Source of the DNA: Candidatus Pullichristensenella excrementigallinarum
Lineage (GTDB): Bacteria; Bacillota; Clostridia; Christensenellales; Aristaeellaceae
Assembly (NCBI GenBank): GCA_018714825.1
Contig: DVMU01000186.1
Coordinates: 1-33,531, forward strand
Length of the DNA: 33,531 nt
Direction of reading: 5' to 3'
Below, in pieces: positions 157 to 28,008 of the stretch. How positions within the stretch are numbered: the stretch's first letter is position 1; every line of letters begins with the position of its first letter. The translations under genes and the position numbers were made by a program. The notes beneath the pieces were generated by a model, which saw nothing but the letters and a program-made list of their open reading frames with translations, was not told the origin of the DNA and made no database searches.

Positions 157-185
157 TTGACACTGAATGGGGGCTGTGTTATCCT
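157..185 (+). promoter_or_regulatory. Promoter of the tyrosine T-box operon
   Basis: A consensus -35 TTGACA (157-162) is followed after 17 bp by a weaker -10 TATCCT (180-185). Transcription would start near 192, just before the first conserved T-box leader elements. Bases 1-156 are A+T-rich and I see no gene or other clear signal in them. Confidence 0.7.
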
Positions 186-191
186 GTTAAA

Positions 192-516
192 TAAAGTCAA
201 GGGAAAAAGCAAACGCGATGACGGAAACAAGTAGCCGCGGCAGGCCGAATGCAGAGAGTCCCCGGAGGGTGCGAGGGGATGGAGGCGGCCGGGGCGAATA
301 CATTCCTAAGCGGCCCGGGGGAACGGAGTAGCCCGGGACGGGTGGCGCCCGTGACAGCGCATCGAGAGGCCCAGGGGAAGAACGCGCGCATTGGCGCGCC
401 GAACCCCGCGGCAAAGGATTTCTTTGCCGGGTAACGCGCTTGCAAGACGGCGCTGGGCGAAATGGAAGTGGTACCGCGATACGTCGCCTTCCTCGGGGAA
501 GGCGGCGATTTTATTT
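192..516 (+). promoter_or_regulatory. T-box leader, tyrosine specifier
   Basis: The canonical T-box sequence GGAAGTGGTACCGCG lies at 464-478. Stem I elements are visible upstream: AAGTAG near 229, GCAGAGAG near 250 with a GGGTGCGAGGGG distal part, and the specifier region GCGAATACATTCC, in which TAC (299-301) is the specifier followed by the usual purine. TAC is a Tyr codon, matching tyrS in the downstream operon. In known T-boxes, uncharged cognate tRNA binds the specifier and stabilises an antiterminator, so genes are switched on by tyrosine shortage. Part of the terminator's left arm (CGCC, 485-488) can alternatively pair with GGCG near 449. The helix assignments are by eye; the specifier frame is the main inference. 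Confidence 0.93.
482..516 (+). terminator. T-box regulated terminator
   Basis: CGTCGCCTTCC pairs with GGAAGGCGGCG (11 bp with one G-U) around a TCGG loop, followed by TTTTATTT. It begins immediately after the T-box sequence, as expected for the terminator that competes with the T-box antiterminator. Confidence 0.92.
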
Positions 517-573
517 GTGGGAACGGAAACAGAATAAAAAGCGCGCCAAGGACGCGAACGGGAGGGAAAAAGA

Positions 574-1752
574 ATGAAATTTACGGAAGATTGCATTGCG
601 CGGCACATGCGGCCCATCACCGGTTCCGCCATTCGAGAGATCTTTAAGCTCCTGGGAAAGCCGGGGATGATCTCGTTTGCGGGCGGCAATCCATCTAACG
701 CAGCGTTGGAACCGGAAGTAATTTCCGAATTGGCTGTGGAAGTGCTGCAAAAATACGGGACTACGCTTTTGCAGTACGGCGCGACCGAAGGATTTGCGCC
801 CTTTATCGAATCGGCAGGGGAATTTTTGAAGGAGACGGGCGTGCAGGCCGGCCCGGGAGAATTGCTGCCGGTGCAGGGAGGTTCGCAGGCATGGGACCTG
901 CTCCTCAAGGCGGTCATTGAGCCGGGAGATGTGATCCTGGCGGAAGATCCGACGTTCTTGGGCGCTTTGCAGGCCATGCACATCTACAACGCCAAGGTCG
1001 TGCCCATTGCGACGGACGAAAACGGCGCGATTCCCGAGGATGTGGAAGAGAAGATCCGCGCCTGGAAGCCGAAATTGATGTATATCATTCCCACCTTCCA
1101 GAATCCTTCGGGCGTGACGCTCTCGCTCGAGCGTCGCAAGAAGCTGGCTGAGCTCGCCAACCGCTACGGCGTACTCCTGGCCGAGGACGACCCCTATCGG
1201 GATCTGCGCTATTCGGGAGAAGCGCTGCCGGCGATCAAGTCCTTTGACGAGGAGGGCTGGGTTGTCTACATGTCGAGCTTTTCCAAGTACGTTTCTCCGG
1301 GAATGCGGCTGGGCGCGGCGGTGGCCAATCCCGTGCTTTTGCGCAAGATGACCATCGGCAAGCAGTCCGCGGACGTGCATTCGCCGCTGATCACCCAGGC
1401 GATTGTGGACGCCTATCTGCGCAAGGGGCTCATGCCCGGGCATCTCAGGCGCATTTGCGGGGATTATAAAAAGCAGCTGGACGCCATGCTGGCGGGATTC
1501 CGCTTCTTCCCCGAGGGTTCGAAGCACACGGTGCCCGAGGGCGGACTGTTCGTCTGGGCCACACTGCCGGAAGGATTGGACGCCAAGGAATTGCTTCCGC
1601 GCGCGGTGGAGAACAATGTGGCCTATGTGCCGGGGACGTTCTTCTATGTCAATGGGGAGCATGAAAACACCCTGCGGCTGAATTTCTCCAACGCCACGAT
1701 CCCGGAAATTGAGAGCGGGATGCGCAAATTGGGCGAAGCCCTGAAAGCATAA
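574..1752 (+). CDS. PLP-dependent aminotransferase, fold type I (LysN/Aro8-like), probable aromatic aminotransferase
   Basis: A 392-aa class I/II aminotransferase of the 2-aminoadipate/aromatic (LysN, ARO8) branch, without a GntR DNA-binding domain. Seen: GGNPSNAAL near the N-terminus, GGSQAWDLL (cofactor-binding turn), PTFQNPSG (Asn that contacts PLP), and the Schiff-base lysine in SSFSKYVSPGMRLG (about K238). The start has GGGAGG 7-8 nt upstream. It is the first gene behind a Tyr-specific T-box and lies 19 nt ahead of tyrS. This family is promiscuous, so the fold alone does not give the substrate. The tyrosine control, and the lack of any transaminase in the otherwise complete aro operon at the other end of the window, suggest that it makes Tyr (and perhaps Phe) from 4-hydroxyphenylpyruvate or phenylpyruvate. 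That role is inference. Confidence 0.9.
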   Translation: MKFTEDCIARHMRPITGSAIREIFKLLGKPGMISFAGGNPSNAALEPEVISELAVEVLQKYGTTLLQYGATEGFAPFIESAGEFLKETGVQAGPGELLPVQGGSQAWDLLLKAVIEPGDVILAEDPTFLGALQAMHIYNAKVVPIATDENGAIPEDVEEKIRAWKPKLMYIIPTFQNPSGVTLSLERRKKLAELANRYGVLLAEDDPYRDLRYSGEALPAIKSFDEEGWVVYMSSFSKYVSPGMRLGAAVANPVLLRKMTIGKQSADVHSPLITQAIVDAYLRKGLMPGHLRRICGDYKKQLDAMLAGFRFFPEGSKHTVPEGGLFVWATLPEGLDAKELLPRAVENNVAYVPGTFFYVNGEHENTLRLNFSNATIPEIESGMRKLGEALKA

Positions 1753-1771: not shown

Positions 1772-3004
1772 ATGAACGCACTGGATATCTTAAAGGAGCG
1801 CGGATTTCTCGCGCAGGTAACGTTTGAAGAGGAACTGCACAAGGCCTTTGACGAGGGAATGGTTACCTTTTATACGGGCTTTGATCCCACGGCGGACAGC
1901 CTGCACATCGGCCACTATATCCCGATCATGGCCATGGCGCATTTGCAGCGGGCGGGCCATCGCCCGATCGCGCTGATGGGCGGGGGCACCGGAATGATCG
2001 GCGACCCCTCCGGCAAAAGCGATCTGCGCAAGGTGCTTTCGGTGGAGGATATCGACCACAACGTTGCCTGCTTTAAAAAGCAGATGGCAAAGTTCCTGGA
2101 TTTTGATTCCGGAAAGCCCAACCAGGCCATCATCGCCAACAATGCCGATTGGCTTCGGAGCCTGAACTACATCGACTTTTTGCGCGATGTGGGCGCGCTG
2201 TTCTCGGTCAACCGCATGTTGACCGCCGAATGCTACAAACAGCGCATGGAAAAGGGCCTGACCTTCCTTGAGTTCAACTACATGATCATGCAGTCCTACG
2301 ATTTTCTGGAGCTGTTCCATCGCTATGGCTGCATCCTGCAGGCGGGAGGAGACGACCAGTGGTCGAACATGCTCTCGGGCGCGGATCTGATCCGGCGCAA
2401 GGAACAGAAGCCCGCGTTTGCGCTGACGTTCAAACTGCTCCTGACCTCCGACGGCCGCAAGATGGGCAAGACCGAGAAGGGCGCGCTGTGGCTGGATCCT
2501 AACAAGTGTTCTCCCTATGACTTCTATCAGTATTGGCGCAACGTGGGGGATGCGGACGTGGAAAAGTGCCTGGCGCTTTTGACCTTCCTGCCCATGGACG
2601 AGGTGCGCAGGCTCGGCGCGCTCAAGGATTCCGCCATCAACGAAGCCAAGCGCGTGCTGGCCTTTGAAGTCACCAAGCTGATTCACGGCGAAGAGGAAGC
2701 GATCAAGGCCCGAGACGCGGCCGAGGCGCTCTTCGGCGGCGGCGGATTGGCCGGCAGCGTGCCGACCACGCACATTCGGCCCGAGGATTTGGAGCAGGAT
2801 AACCGGCTGCTGGCATGGATCGCCCGCTGCGGCCTGTGCAAATCCAACGGCGAGGCGCGCAAGGCCATCCAGCAGGGCGGCGTCTCCATCGGCGAAGAAC
2901 GGGTGACCGATATCGATTTCCGCCTGACTCCGGAAATGCTTAGCGGAGAAGGCGTGCTCGTGCGCAAGGGCAAAAAGAGCTATCATCGCTTTGTGATGGA
3001 ATGA
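1772..3004 (+). CDS. tyrS: Tyrosyl-tRNA synthetase
   Basis: 410 aa, a normal length for bacterial TyrRS. Cytoplasmic; charges tRNA-Tyr. Seen: the class I HIGH signature (HIGH, residues 45-48, in SLHIGHYIP), [14 protein letters not shown] after it, the tyrosine/tRNA region [10 protein letters not shown], the second signature as KMGKT (residues 230-234), and a C-terminal S4-like RNA-binding domain (about 343-410, with [15 protein letters not shown]). AAGGAG precedes the ATG by 8-9 nt. Second gene of the Tyr T-box transcription unit, which is the usual control for tyrS in Firmicutes. Confidence 0.98.
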
Positions 3005-3010
3005 TCGCCC

Positions 3011-3655
3011 ATGAAGCCGTACAAGACCTTTCTTCGCCGCGCGCAGGGAGAGTTTGTCATCAACAAATCCCGCTTCATCGGCACGGGAGCACCCGTGGAG
3101 ACGGAAGAGGAGGCCCTGCAATTTCTCTCGGAAATGCGCGGGACGTACAAGGACGCCAATCATAACTGTTACGCCTACATCATTGGCCCCAACAAGGGCG
3201 TGATGCGCTATTCGGACGACGGCGAACCGGGCGGAACGGCGGGGCTTCCCATCATCGAGGTGCTCAAGGCCCGCGATGTGACCAATTGCGCGGTCGTGGT
3301 CACGCGGTATTTCGGCGGCATTCTGCTCGGCGCGGGCGGACTGGTGCGCGCCTATTCGCAGGGGTCGGCGACCGCGATCAACGCCTGCGGGGTCGGGGTA
3401 ATGCACCCGACGGCGCGGCTTTTAATGGATGTTCCGTATCCTCTTTTAAACCGCGTGGAATATTTTCTCAAGGATCAGCCCGTGGTGGTCGAAGAAAAGA
3501 CGTTTGCGGATACGGTCACAATACAGATGGTCGTCCGCTCCGTGGACGAGGAACAGCTTGAAAAAAAGCTGGTCGATCTTTCCGAGGGCGTATTGGAGCC
3601 GGTGCGCTTTGAGGAATTTTTCCGCGCATGGCCGGAGGAGGAAGACGGCGCGTAA
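3011..3655 (+). CDS. YigZ/IMPACT family protein
   Basis: 214 aa. The N-terminal UPF0029/Impact domain carries the family signature YSDDGEPGGTAG and the following VVVTRYFGGILLGAGGLVRAY segment, and the C-terminal ~70 residues fit the small DUF1949-type ferredoxin-like domain. Bacterial YigZ proteins are widespread and of uncertain role; the eukaryotic relative IMPACT affects translation control. It starts 6 nt after the tyrS stop, so it is probably co-transcribed and coupled with tyrS under the T-box. No terminator is visible between it and ilvE. Confidence 0.93.
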   Translation: MKPYKTFLRRAQGEFVINKSRFIGTGAPVETEEEALQFLSEMRGTYKDANHNCYAYIIGPNKGVMRYSDDGEPGGTAGLPIIEVLKARDVTNCAVVVTRYFGGILLGAGGLVRAYSQGSATAINACGVGVMHPTARLLMDVPYPLLNRVEYFLKDQPVVVEEKTFADTVTIQMVVRSVDEEQLEKKLVDLSEGVLEPVRFEEFFRAWPEEEDGA

Positions 3656-3671
3656 AATAACCGTTTCCCGC

Positions 3672-3700
3672 TTGCAAGACCCGCTTTAAGGGCGTATAAT
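3672..3700 (+). promoter_or_regulatory. ilvE promoter
   Basis: TTGCAA (3672-3677), 17-bp spacer, perfect TATAAT (3695-3700). The predicted transcript starts about 25 nt before the ilvE ATG, leaving no room for a leader regulator. Confidence 0.8.
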
Positions 3701-3730
3701 ACAACAAATTTATTGGATGGAGGAGTATTT

Positions 3731-4801
3731 ATGCAGGAGATTCGCTTTGAAAAGGCGACTTCCTTCAAGCAGAAGCCGCAGGACGAGAGCAAGCTGGGCT
3801 TTGGCAAGCTCTTTACCGATTACATGTTCGAAATGGATTACGAGGCCGGCAAGGGCTGGCACGATCCGCGCGTGGTTCCGTATCACAATTTCTCGCTCGA
3901 TCCGGCCACCTCGGTCTTCCATTACGGCCAGGAAATCTTCGAGGGCCTCAAGTGCTATCGCCGCAAGGACGGCGGCCTGCAGCTGTTCCGCGCCAAGGAC
4001 AATTTTGCCCGCATGAATCGCTCGGCCGAGCGCATGGCGATTCCCCAGTTTGACGAGGAGCTGGCGCTCCAGGGCCTGATCAAGCTCCTGGAAGTGGAAA
4101 AGGATTGGGTGCCGCACACGGCGGGGACTTCGCTGTATATCCGGCCCACCATCATCGCCACGGATCCGATGCTCGGCGTACACGCGGCCAAGCGCTATAA
4201 GTTCTTTATCATTCTCTCGCCCTCGGGCGCGTACTATGCCGGCGGGCTGGCCCCGGTGGAGATCTATGTGGAGGACAAGTATGTGCGCGCGGTGCGCGGC
4301 GGCATCGGCTTTGCCAAGACCGGCGGCAACTACGCGGCCTCCATTCGAGCGGGCGAAATCGCCGAGGAAAAGGGCTATACGCAGGTTTTGTGGCTGGACG
4401 GCGTGGAGCAGAAGTATGTCGAGGAAGTCGGCGCGATGAACATGATGTTCGTCCTCGATGGCAAGATCGTCACGCCCATGCTCAACGGCTCGATCCTGCC
4501 GGGCATCACCCGCGATTCCATCCTGAAGCTGGCCAAGCACATGGGCTATGAAACCGAGGAACGGCGCATCGCCATTCAGGAGATCTTTGACGCCGCGCAT
4601 TCCGGCAAGCTCGACGAGGCGTTCGGCACCGGCACTGCCGCGGTGGTATCCCCGGTGGGAGCGCTGTGCTGGAAGGATGAGAAGCTCGTGATCAACCGCG
4701 GAGAGATCGGTCCCATCGCGCAGAAATTGTACGATACGCTCACCGGCATTCAGTTCGGCGAAGCGGAAGATCCCTTCGGCTGGGTTCTTAAAATCGACTG
4801 A
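3731..4801 (+). CDS. ilvE: Branched-chain amino acid aminotransferase
   Basis: 356 aa, class IV PLP aminotransferase of the longer BCAT type. It interconverts Leu/Ile/Val and their 2-oxo acids with glutamate/2-oxoglutarate. Seen: GQEIFEGLKCYRR, RMNRSAERM, the PLP lysine in FAKTGGNYAAS (K196), EVGAMNMMFV, and GTGTAAVVSPVG at the C-terminal phosphate-binding turn. The ORF track starts at 3713, but that ATG overlaps the ribosome site; GGAGGAG sits 5 nt upstream of the ATG at 3731, which gives the expected N-terminus. It has its own promoter and a strong terminator, so it is monocistronic. Confidence 0.96.
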   Translation: MQEIRFEKATSFKQKPQDESKLGFGKLFTDYMFEMDYEAGKGWHDPRVVPYHNFSLDPATSVFHYGQEIFEGLKCYRRKDGGLQLFRAKDNFARMNRSAERMAIPQFDEELALQGLIKLLEVEKDWVPHTAGTSLYIRPTIIATDPMLGVHAAKRYKFFIILSPSGAYYAGGLAPVEIYVEDKYVRAVRGGIGFAKTGGNYAASIRAGEIAEEKGYTQVLWLDGVEQKYVEEVGAMNMMFVLDGKIVTPMLNGSILPGITRDSILKLAKHMGYETEERRIAIQEIFDAAHSGKLDEAFGTGTAAVVSPVGALCWKDEKLVINRGEIGPIAQKLYDTLTGIQFGEAEDPFGWVLKID

Positions 4802-23145: not shown

Positions 23146-23185
23146 GCGGCGGGATTCCCTTTGCGGGGCCCGCCGCTCTATTTTT
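23146..23185 (+). terminator. fprA terminator
   Basis: GCGGCGGG (23146-23153) pairs with CCCGCCGC (23169-23176), then TCTATTTTT. Its T-tract overlaps the last codons of convergent tyrA. The same hairpin lacks a T-tract on the - strand. Confidence 0.82.
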
Positions 23186-24032
23186 GCGCGCGGGATGCCT
23201 CGAGCGCTTCGCGGCGCGCGCGGGAAGTATCAAACAGCCGCACGAGCGCCTCTCGGTCGCCCGCCGCGATCGCGGACCGGATCTTTTCCAATTCCCGGCA
23301 AAATCCGTCGATTGCGCCCAGGAGATTCTCCCGGTTTTCCAGGAACAATTCGCTCCACAGGGCGGAATTGATCTTCGCGATGCGGGTCAGATCCCGATAG
23401 CTGTCGCCGATAAAGCGCCCGGTATCCCGGCCTTCTCGGTCGCTGTTGATCAGCGCCACGGCCATGGCGTGTGGGAGTTGAGAGGTAAAGGCGATGATTT
23501 CATCGTGGAATTGGGGACTGACGCGCCGAACGCCGGCAAACCCCAGTTCGCGCACGAGCGCTTCGAGCGTCCGGAGATGCTCTTCGGAATTGGAGGGCAG
23601 GGGCGTAAGGATGTAGTTGGCGCCCCGGAAGACCTCGGCCGAGGCAAAGTCGATGCCCCGCTTTTCCCGCCCGGCCATGGGATGCCCCAGGACAAAGTCC
23701 ACATCCGCGGGCAGGATCCCCGCGAGGCCGCTGGCCAGGCGGGTTTTGACGCCCGTTGCGTCGGTAACGAGGGAACCCGGGCGAAAGTGCTTTGCGTTTT
23801 CCTGCAAAAAGGGCAACACCGCTCCGGGATACAGGGCGAGGATGGTCAGATCCGCATGGGGCAGGATCCTTGCGGCCTCGGTTTCGGCCCCGAGGACCAT
23901 TCCGCGCCGCAGGGCGGTTTGGAGGGTTTCGGGATCGCGATCCACGCCGTAGACCTCCCGATAGCCCGCTTCCTTCAGCGCCAGGGCAAAGCTCCCGCCG
24001 ATCACGCCCAGGCCGATAATCGCAATGTTCAT
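23178..24032 (-). CDS. tyrA: Prephenate dehydrogenase
   Basis: 284 aa. Oxidative decarboxylation of prephenate to 4-hydroxyphenylpyruvate, the tyrosine branch. Seen: the dinucleotide motif IIGLGVIGGSFA with acidic GVDRD after beta-2 (NAD rather than NADP), DATGVK, GHPMAGREKRG with the catalytic His, and QLPHAMAVAL. It ends about 285 residues in, so the C-terminal ACT domain of Bacillus-type TyrA is missing; feedback by Tyr may therefore be absent at this enzyme. The ATG at 24032 overlaps the aroQ stop (ATGA). Last gene of the aro operon; no terminator of its own is visible. Confidence 0.95.
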   Translation of the reverse strand: MNIAIIGLGVIGGSFALALKEAGYREVYGVDRDPETLQTALRRGMVLGAETEAARILPHADLTILALYPGAVLPFLQENAKHFRPGSLVTDATGVKTRLASGLAGILPADVDFVLGHPMAGREKRGIDFASAEVFRGANYILTPLPSNSEEHLRTLEALVRELGFAGVRRVSPQFHDEIIAFTSQLPHAMAVALINSDREGRDTGRFIGDSYRDLTRIAKINSALWSELFLENRENLLGAIDGFCRELEKIRSAIAAGDREALVRLFDTSRARREALEASRAQK

Positions 24033-24481
24033 TTTTGTTCCTCCCGGGGATTTGCGCACAGTTCGAGCGCGCTCATGGCCAGGAGATATCCGTTCATGCC
24101 GAATCCCGCGATCTGCCCCAGGCAAGCCGGCGCCGTGACCGAGCGGCGGCGAAATTCGTCGCGCGCGTGGACATTGCTCAGATGGACCTCCACTGTGGGG
24201 ATGTGAACCGATTGAATCGCGTCGTGCAGGGCGTAGCTGTAATGCGTGTACGCGCCCGGATTGAAGAGAATCCCGTCGTATTTCTCAACGTATGCCTGCT
24301 GAATCCAGTCGATCAGCTGCCCCTCCCAATTGCTCTGCAGAATGGTCAGCGCATGGCCGCGACGCTTTGCCTCCAGCGCCACCGTCTCCATCATCGATTC
24401 ATAGGAAGTGTTTCCGTAAATTCCCGGCTCGCGGATTCCCGTGAAATTGAGATTGGGCCCGTTGAGGAGCATGATTTTCAT
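24029..24481 (-). CDS. aroQ: 3-Dehydroquinate dehydratase, type II
   Basis: 150 aa, dodecameric type II dehydroquinase, third step of the shikimate pathway. Seen: LNGPNLNFTGIREPGIYG with the catalytic Tyr on the flexible loop, QSNWEGQLIDWIQ, NPGAYTHYSYALHDAI, and VEVHLSNVHARDEFR with the catalytic His and the product-binding segment. The ATG at 24481 overlaps the aroK stop by 4 nt and has GGGAGGCGG upstream; the track start at 24565 runs back into aroK. Confidence 0.97.
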   Translation of the reverse strand: MKIMLLNGPNLNFTGIREPGIYGNTSYESMMETVALEAKRRGHALTILQSNWEGQLIDWIQQAYVEKYDGILFNPGAYTHYSYALHDAIQSVHIPTVEVHLSNVHARDEFRRRSVTAPACLGQIAGFGMNGYLLAMSALELCANPREEQK

Positions 24482-25801: not shown

Positions 25802-26926
25802 TTACGCCTCCTCTCCCTTGCGATAGAGCCCCAATAGACGCAGCGCCTGGGTATCGGGCTCGATTTCGCGAAGCGTCCGGCGCAGTTTTCCCAGCTGCAA
25901 TTCGCCCTCAAAATCCGCGTAGAAGACGTATTCCCAGGGCCTTTGCGGGATGGGACGGCTCTCCAGGCGGGTCATGTTCAGATCGTATTCGGAAAAGCGG
26001 TTGAGCACCCGTGCCAGAGCGCCGGGTTGGTTGCGCGTGTTGAAGACCACCGAGGCCTTTTCCGCGCGCGGATCATCAACCATTTCCCGCGAGACGATGA
26101 CAAACCGGGTGTGGTTTTTCTTATCCTCGTGAATGTCGGCGGCGAGGATGTTCAGCCCATAGCGCTCCGCCGCGCGGGAAGAGGCGATGGCGGCCTGCGA
26201 GGGATCGCCATCCTGGAATACCTTGTTGGCGCTGATGGCCGTGTTCTTGTAGGGAATGAGCTGCCAATCCGGATGGGCGTGCAAAAACTCCCCGCATTGC
26301 GCGATGCCTTGCGCGTGGGAATAGACGCGCCGGATATCCGAGAGCTTCGCGCCCGGAAGCGCGAGCAAATGCTGCCGGATGCGCACGTTCTGTTCGCCGA
26401 CAATGAACAGGCGCTCCCGGCTGATGCAGTCGTAGCATTCGGAAATGGTGCCGGTGGAGGAATTTTCAATGGGTACGACGCCATAGTCCGCGCGTTTCTC
26501 GCGCACGGCGCAGGCGACTTCTTCCAGCGAGGGGAAGCAGACCCGCCGCGCCGGCGGGCCGAAGAACTGCATCGCCGCCTGTTCGGAGAACGCGCCCTCC
26601 ACGCCGAAATAGCCCACCAGCGGATCCTGGATCCATTCGGCGCCCGCGCTTTCCGGGGCGGAAGGCAACAGCCGCCGCTGCGCGGCCTTGCTCAGATGCA
26701 AAATTTCCCGGTACAGCGCGCGCACGTCCCGCCGATTTTCCTCGGGCACGCAGGCTTCCGCGCGATCCAGAACGACCTGTTCGCGACCGGCCTGCAGCAC
26801 TTCCATGCCGTGTTCCAATTTATAGCGCGCCACCGCTTCGCTCACTTGCATCCGCCGGGCGAAGAGGGGGGCGATTTGCGCGTCGATTTCGTCGATCTGG
26901 GCGCGGTAATCCGTCAAATCCGGCAT
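25802..26926 (-). CDS. pheA: Bifunctional chorismate mutase / prephenate dehydratase
   Basis: 374 aa, three domains: an AroQ-class chorismate mutase helix bundle (about 1-85; YRAQIDEIDAQIAPLFARR), prephenate dehydratase (about 105-285; GYFGVEGAFSEQAA, VPIENSSTGTISE, HTRFVIV with the catalytic TRF), and a C-terminal ACT domain (about 290-370). The ACT part retains both phenylalanine-binding signatures, PGAL and ESRP, so feedback inhibition by Phe is expected. The mutase also feeds TyrA, which has none of its own. ATG 26926 has AAGGAGG 8 nt upstream and overlaps aroC by 13 nt. The fused form is more usual in proteobacteria than in Bacillus. Confidence 0.96.
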   Translation of the reverse strand: MPDLTDYRAQIDEIDAQIAPLFARRMQVSEAVARYKLEHGMEVLQAGREQVVLDRAEACVPEENRRDVRALYREILHLSKAAQRRLLPSAPESAGAEWIQDPLVGYFGVEGAFSEQAAMQFFGPPARRVCFPSLEEVACAVREKRADYGVVPIENSSTGTISECYDCISRERLFIVGEQNVRIRQHLLALPGAKLSDIRRVYSHAQGIAQCGEFLHAHPDWQLIPYKNTAISANKVFQDGDPSQAAIASSRAAERYGLNILAADIHEDKKNHTRFVIVSREMVDDPRAEKASVVFNTRNQPGALARVLNRFSEYDLNMTRLESRPIPQRPWEYVFYADFEGELQLGKLRRTLREIEPDTQALRLLGLYRKGEEA

Positions 26927-28008
26927 GAGAGCACCTCCTTCAACTGATCGTAGAGGACAATGGCGCACGCGGCTTCGACGACCGGCACCGCGCGCGGGAC
27001 GATGCAGGGATCGTGTCGCCCGGGAACCGAGATCTCCGTCTCTTCCTTTCGGGAGAGGGAGACGGTCTTTTGCTTTTTGGCAATGGACGGCGTGGGCCGC
27101 ACGGCCACGCGAAACAGCAGGGGCATTCCATTGGCGATTCCGCCTTGAATACCTCCGGAGAAATTCGTTTCGCAGGCAATTTCTCCGTCCTTGAGGCAGA
27201 AGGCGTCGTTGACTTCGCTGCCCAGGCGTTCGGCCGCTTCAAAGCCCAGCCCGAATTCCACGCCCTTGATGGCGGGAATGGAGAACAGAACGTGCGCCAG
27301 ATCGGATTCCAGGGAATCAAAGAACGGATTGCCTGTTCCTGCGGGAACGCCCGTCGCCCAGCATTCGATCACGCCGCCCACCGAATCCCCCTCGCGCTTG
27401 GCGCAGAGGATGGCCTCCCGCATCTTTTCCGCGGCCTCGGGATCGATCGTGGGCAGTTCGCGCGCGCAAAGCGCGGCGCGCGCCTCGTCAGAGAGGCGCA
27501 GAGGGTCCAAAGGCGCATCGTGAATTCCACGAATGGAAGCGATGCGGGCGGAAATTTCGATGCCCTGCGCGCGAAGGATCTGTTTGGCCACCGCGCCCGC
27601 GAAGACCAACGGCGCGGTGATGCGCCCGGAAAAGTGGCCGCCGCCGCGATAATCCTGGAATCCGCAATAGCGCATCTGCGCCGTATAATCCGCGTGCCCG
27701 GGGCGGGGGAGATCCCGCAGAAGCGAATAATCCCTGGAACGCGTGTCGCGATTGCGCAGAATCGCGCACAGCGGCGCGCCAGTGGTTTTTCCCTCAAAAA
27801 AGCCGCTGAGGATTTCGGGGAAGTCCTCCTCCCTGCGCGGGGTGGAAAGATTGCTGCGTCCCGGAGCGCGGCGCGAAAGCTCGAAGGCGATCGCGTCCAA
27901 ATCGAGGGCAAAGCCCGCGGGCAAACCGCTCAGGACGATGCCAATGGCCGGACCATGGGATTCTCCGAAGATGGAAAGTTGGAAATGCCGTCCCCATTCA
28001 TTGCTCAT
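26914..28008 (-). CDS. aroC: Chorismate synthase
   Basis: 364 aa, FMN-dependent, seventh and last step to chorismate. Seen: the N-terminal GRHFQLSIFGESHG signature, RPGHADYTAQMRY, RGGGHFSGRITAPLVFAGA, and the C-terminal RHDPCIVPRAVPV. The ATG at 28008 has GGGAGGG upstream and lies inside the end of aroA (11-nt overlap); the track start at 28149 adds 47 unlike residues. Confidence 0.98.
   Translation of the reverse strand: MSNEWGRHFQLSIFGESHGPAIGIVLSGLPAGFALDLDAIAFELSRRAPGRSNLSTPRREEDFPEILSGFFEGKTTGAPLCAILRNRDTRSRDYSLLRDLPRPGHADYTAQMRYCGFQDYRGGGHFSGRITAPLVFAGAVAKQILRAQGIEISARIASIRGIHDAPLDPLRLSDEARAALCARELPTIDPEAAEKMREAILCAKREGDSVGGVIECWATGVPAGTGNPFFDSLESDLAHVLFSIPAIKGVEFGLGFEAAERLGSEVNDAFCLKDGEIACETNFSGGIQGGIANGMPLLFRVAVRPTPSIAKKQKTVSLSRKEETEISVPGRHDPCIVPRAVPVVEAACAIVLYDQLKEVLSCRI

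Follow-up and report, generated by a model that had tools for sequence, protein, structure and literature searches.

A gut bacterium probably turns on a tyrosine-making aminotransferase together with tyrosyl-tRNA synthetase in response to uncharged tRNA-Tyr

In Candidatus Pullichristensenella excrementigallinarum, a T-box leader with a tyrosine specifier stands ahead of a class-I aminotransferase gene, which is followed by the tyrosyl-tRNA synthetase gene tyrS and by yigZ. Sequence analysis bears out the T-box, its specificity for Tyr and the operon, and all three are conserved. Our best reading of this arrangement, to which we assign a probability of roughly 0.68, is that the enzyme is an aryl-2-oxo-acid aminotransferase that makes tyrosine and is induced with tyrS at tyrosine starvation. 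The aminotransferase-tyrS-yigZ unit is kept over many families of the order Christensenellales, in one part of which it is under a Tyr T-box, and an order-wide, generically annotated aminotransferase thereby gains a concrete and testable function. The literature searched, which did not extend to the T-box surveys PMC2271356 and PMC2650889, holds no earlier description of an aminotransferase-tyrS unit under a Tyr T-box. Throughout, the window is the whole stretch of DNA analyzed, a contig of 33,531 nucleotides.

Results

The leader aligns with every position of the Rfam T-box model (RF00230), and the covariance alignment places UAC in the specifier columns, with position 299 as the first base of the TAC codon that the original prediction had read there (Table 1). 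Its score of 63.2 bits is below the Rfam gathering score of 93, which only two of the approximately 14 convincing T-boxes found in a covariance search of the genome exceed; the issue is therefore the threshold rather than the element, and a default scan of the window shows only a raiA RNA because the leader falls short of that score. The raiA RNA (RF03072; 11262-11467, minus strand) scores 197 bits, well over its threshold.

The specifier register could be validated by eye at those T-boxes of the genome that have a recognisable downstream gene. In the same register, the specifier agrees with the gene at metS (ATG), pheS (TTC), ileS (ATC), leuA/leuS (CTC), serS (TCC), cysS (TGC) and the trp genes (TGG). 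An alternative register, in which the specifier would be ACA and not a Tyr codon, was discarded because it agrees neither with the Rfam alignment nor with the distance to the 3' GAGC among the leaders. The UGGN-containing core (AGTGGTACCGCG, 467-478) is followed by the terminator. The discriminator base of tRNA-Tyr is A (A73), which UGGU fits; the core of the cysS T-box carries UGGA instead, and each motif agrees with what the discriminator base of the cognate tRNA (tRNA-Cys or tRNA-Tyr) would predict. One anticodon-loop pattern gave no match to a tRNA-Tyr gene in the genome. Upstream of the leader lies a promoter-like site, of a kind matched four times in 5 kb against 2.1 expected.

Table 1. 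Coordinates of the leader, the genes behind it and related genes in the window.
Feature	Position	Strand	Basis or remark
Promoter-like site TTGACA-17-TATCCT, TG before second hexamer	157..185	+	Consensus match only
T-box leader	209..494	+	Rfam RF00230 positions 1-219 of 219, 63.2 bits, E 1.6e-13
Specifier codon TAC (Tyr)	299..301	+	Rfam alignment column
T-box core AGTGGTACCGC	467..477	+	Sequence; UGGU pairs with tRNA acceptor end NCCA, N = A
Intrinsic terminator competing with antiterminator	482..507	+	Fold z-score -2.7
Class-I aminotransferase, LysN/PH0207/Aro8-like	574..1752	+	Proposed 4-hydroxyphenylpyruvate aminotransferase; PLP lysine K238
tyrS, tyrosyl-tRNA synthetase	1772..3004	+	TIGR00234, 408.6 bits, cut-off 113.8
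yigZ, IMPACT/UPF0029 family	3011..3655	+	Third gene of the unit, in many relatives too
ilvE, branched-chain aminotransferase	3713..4801		Own promoter-like site at 3672-3700
tyrA, prephenate dehydrogenase family	23178..24125	-	Over Pfam PF02153 cut-off; possible 4-hydroxyphenylpyruvate source
pheA, chorismate mutase/prephenate dehydratase	25802..26968	-	Phenylpyruvate source

The original prediction had drawn the unit from 299 to 1752; its aminotransferase boundary is exact, with the gene at 574-1752, and the leader is larger, the T-box beginning at about 209. The feature that matters most, tyrS, was absent from that prediction and lies immediately downstream, after a gap of 19 bases. No terminator-like site is found on the plus strand between the aminotransferase gene, tyrS and yigZ, and from their spacing we infer that the three are co-transcribed. 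The third gene, yigZ, keeps its place behind the other two in many of the order's families.

The 392-residue aminotransferase is closest, among sequences of solved structure, to an aminotransferase II homologue, to PH0207, to a multiple-substrate aminotransferase and to LysN of Thermus. The phmmer matches to LysN, PH0207 and the multiple-substrate aminotransferases extend over nearly the whole length of the protein (E 1e-80 to 1e-96), the PLP lysine (K238) is invariant, and the conserved Arg that is R23 in LysN has its counterpart in R21, which supports the proposed LysN/Aro8-like class-I assignment. K238 and R21 do not discriminate between aromatic and other substrates, and the protein has no residue that singles out aromatic ones. 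The protein falls short of the cut-off of every NCBIfam equivalog model, so that a generic database name is likely, as had been anticipated.

At a presence cut-off of E<=1e-60, the aminotransferase occurs in 54 of the 101 genomes sampled from the order, and in 41 of these 54 it is directly upstream of tyrS. The same succession is seen in 23 of 29 order loci, and in nearly all of the 33 loci collected by protein similarity that have enough DNA. This position is kept over about 20 families at approximately 40-58% protein identity, and such order-wide conservation rules out a chance pairing with tyrS. Outside the order but within the class, 27 homologues were examined, and none is near tyrS within flanks of about 1.5 kb on each side. 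On a quick tree of 66 rows, the root of which was not inferred, the linkage takes four changes, against 22 with shuffled labels, which would fit an early origin of the linkage and few subsequent losses.

Wherever the T-box core and stem I are present, the specifier is almost invariably TAC: it is in register in 37 of 38 such leaders, including that of the window (a script gave 35; those of L061 and L063 were read by eye). Homologues elsewhere thus lie behind Tyr T-boxes and beside tyrS, a point that the original prediction had proposed to check. The sole exception (L049:24-235) has the specifier TGC (Cys) ahead of an aminotransferase-tyrS pair and a core UGGU that fits Tyr rather than Cys; a sequence error, decay or a change of specificity might each account for it. 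The pair also occurs without a T-box in loci L052 and L055 (upstream of 4001). In L052 a promoter-like site is directly followed by a retained terminator-like hairpin, which gives the impression that a deletion has removed the remainder of the T-box. None of the loci scanned from families more distant than that of the window shows a T-box, which suggests that the pairing of the genes probably predates the T-box control or outlasts it. In three relatives with large gaps between the genes (L028, L044 and L048), tyrS has no T-box of its own in the gap, and one leader therefore serves both the aminotransferase and tyrS.

Some relatives differ in the order of their genes. A gene for a metallo-beta-lactamase-fold-like hydrolase, recognized by eye, lies between the aminotransferase gene and tyrS at L028:5176-6101 and L044:5170-6118, and the copy in L044 has a frame seemingly broken by an early TAG. 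In genome G058, from the family of the window, the aminotransferase gene is directly followed by yigZ (C6:7963-9105; L072), and tyrS is found on another contig (C38:20407-21606) as a more distant sequence (56% identity), an arrangement which suggests that the original tyrS has been displaced.

The aro operon of the window lies on the other strand and runs from 31403 down to 23178, with genes for DAHP synthase, aroB, aroA, aroC, chorismate mutase/prephenate dehydratase, aroE, aroK and tyrA. It contains no class I/II transaminase, as originally noted, and covariance searches of the window and the genome found no T-box on it, tyrA and pheA included. The proposal that the aminotransferase is the missing last step of Tyr and Phe synthesis goes too far: besides this enzyme the genome encodes three plausible class-I aminotransferases, one AspB-like, one PatA-like and one Met/KAT-like, the last lying downstream of cysS, and 26 well-complete genomes of the order have both prephenate dehydratase and prephenate dehydrogenase without a copy of the enzyme at E<=1e-60. 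Nothing ties it to Phe, and pheS of this genome has its own Phe T-box. A role as the sole or missing step, or in serving Phe, is thus not supported. We also considered HisC as a stand-in aromatic aminotransferase and discarded it, as none was recognized among the PF00155 matches of the genome (92% complete), in which hisG was likewise not found.

Across the order, whose genomes are drafts, co-occurrence was assessed with tests that ignore shared ancestry, were chosen after the data had been seen and are suggestive only. Prephenate dehydratase (PDT) and prephenate dehydrogenase (PDH) are both present in 27 of 32 genomes with the aminotransferase-tyrS pair and in 32 of 49 others (81 well-complete genomes; p 0.08), so that a specific co-occurrence with the prephenate branch was rejected as not significant. 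The contrast for hisG is similar (p 0.014), and since it is no weaker, the prephenate-branch signal may reflect general prototrophy. Six genomes with the pair have neither prephenate gene; four of them are well complete, and one (G003) is from the window's own family, 99% complete and equipped with a TAC T-box. In these six at least, the enzyme must serve a different purpose or draw its substrate from elsewhere.

Discussion

In the mechanism that we propose, the leader would be a T-box that senses tRNA-Tyr and acts by terminating transcription. If the tRNA is uncharged, its GUA anticodon would bind the UAC specifier while its free acceptor end binds the UGGU bulge, allowing the antiterminator to form and RNA polymerase to read into the aminotransferase gene, tyrS and yigZ. 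The enzyme would be a broad aryl-2-oxo-acid aminotransferase that converts 4-hydroxyphenylpyruvate into tyrosine, glutamate being the probable amino donor, and a single switch could thereby raise the supply of tyrosine and its charging together. Induction by uncharged tRNA-Tyr favours the direction in which the amino acid is made. Against this reading count the weak co-occurrence with the two prephenate genes, the 26 genomes that have both of these genes and no copy at the cut-off, and an aro operon that has no T-box of its own.

Parts of this arrangement are familiar from other systems. The tyrS leader of Bacillus subtilis likewise has a tRNA-Tyr specifier, a T-box core and a terminator/antiterminator switch ahead of tyrS, whereas here an aminotransferase gene is placed between leader and tyrS. 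In the Bacillus cereus group, a tyrosine T-box also controls tyrosine-making genes, but there it heads the biosynthesis operon (PMC2494555); in the window, no T-box precedes the aro/tyrA operon, and the aminotransferase alone, with tyrS, is under one. With LysN, PH0207 and the multiple-substrate aminotransferases (fold type I, of the Aro8/KAT II kind), the enzyme shares the PLP lysine and the arginine that corresponds to R23 of LysN.

The similarity to Thermus LysN could be taken to mean that the enzyme is the 2-aminoadipate aminotransferase of lysine synthesis. We consider this close to impossible and ruled it out, since LysX, the marker of the alpha-aminoadipate lysine pathway, reaches at best 28 bits in the genome against a cut-off of 275.6, which makes a lysine-pathway role unlikely; the LysW/LysX pathway expected with LysN is not in evidence, a dihydrodipicolinate-synthase-like gene, recognized by eye, is present on contig C71, and the gene context is tyrS rather than lys. 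The opposite metabolic direction, in which the enzyme would carry out the first step of a Stickland-type fermentation of tyrosine, is suggested by the indolepyruvate:ferredoxin oxidoreductase (IOR) gene clusters of the genome and by the ability of aminotransferases to work both ways, but a Tyr T-box turns genes on when Tyr is scarce, which is the wrong sign for catabolism, and we regard it as very improbable. A broad-specificity aminotransferase (for Leu, 2-aminoadipate, Met and aromatic substrates) whose place in the tyrS operon is incidental and whose link to Tyr is loose is less easily dismissed, given the multi-substrate enzymes among the close solved relatives, the want of a fitting NCBIfam equivalog and the many genomes in which the enzyme is dispensable. 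We nevertheless judge it unlikely, because its place ahead of tyrS over about 20 families and the Tyr T-box in the window's clade would be hard to explain.

A further possibility, held at low confidence, concerns where the substrate comes from. The enzyme might mainly aminate arylpyruvates derived from arylacetates, with de novo synthesis optional: a PaaK-like ligase would activate 4-hydroxyphenylacetate or phenylacetate, IorAB would reductively carboxylate the CoA ester with ferredoxin, and the aminotransferase would act last. This is a narrower case of the tyrosine-making reading, and the confidences in the two overlap. On its contig C189, the window's genome carries paaK, iorA and iorB as a cluster, and IorA is found in five of the six pair-carrying genomes that lack the prephenate branch, against four of 14 other genomes lacking it (p 0.05, on small numbers). 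A 2026 paper (PMC13285125) notes the proposal that IOR runs backwards in a methanogen to make amino acids, and considers ligase-linked IOR in Bacteroides in the same biosynthetic sense. In favour of the tyrosine-making reading as a whole, a candidate source of aryl-2-oxo acid (any of PDT, PDH and IorA) is present in 40 of 41 genomes with the pair and in 50 of 60 others (p 0.026, uncorrected for relatedness), the one genome without a source being G076, which speaks against salvage there. IorA is, however, common in the order (63 of 101 genomes), its overall enrichment with the pair is not significant (p 0.21), the genomes are drafts, and paaK and IOR can also run degradatively. More tentatively still, one Tyr-starvation switch might govern an amination shared by de novo synthesis and ferredoxin-driven arylacetate salvage in the order, so that Tyr, and perhaps Phe, could be rebuilt from microbial waste even after loss of the prephenate branch. 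If salvage does occur, it would bear on the aromatic amino acid supply of uncultured gut Clostridia and on predictions of auxotrophy.

In G003, iorA appears as two adjacent matches (C85:3552-5233; model positions 1-415 and 422-595), either through a frameshift or as two genes. The window's genome contains a second TAC T-box (G000:C33:3025-3285, equivalent to L012:1501-1761), which stands ahead of a sodium:solute symporter of the PutP-like superfamily. This symporter is a candidate transporter of tyrosine (or of aromatic compounds), and its placement behind such a leader would fit a coherent response to Tyr starvation.
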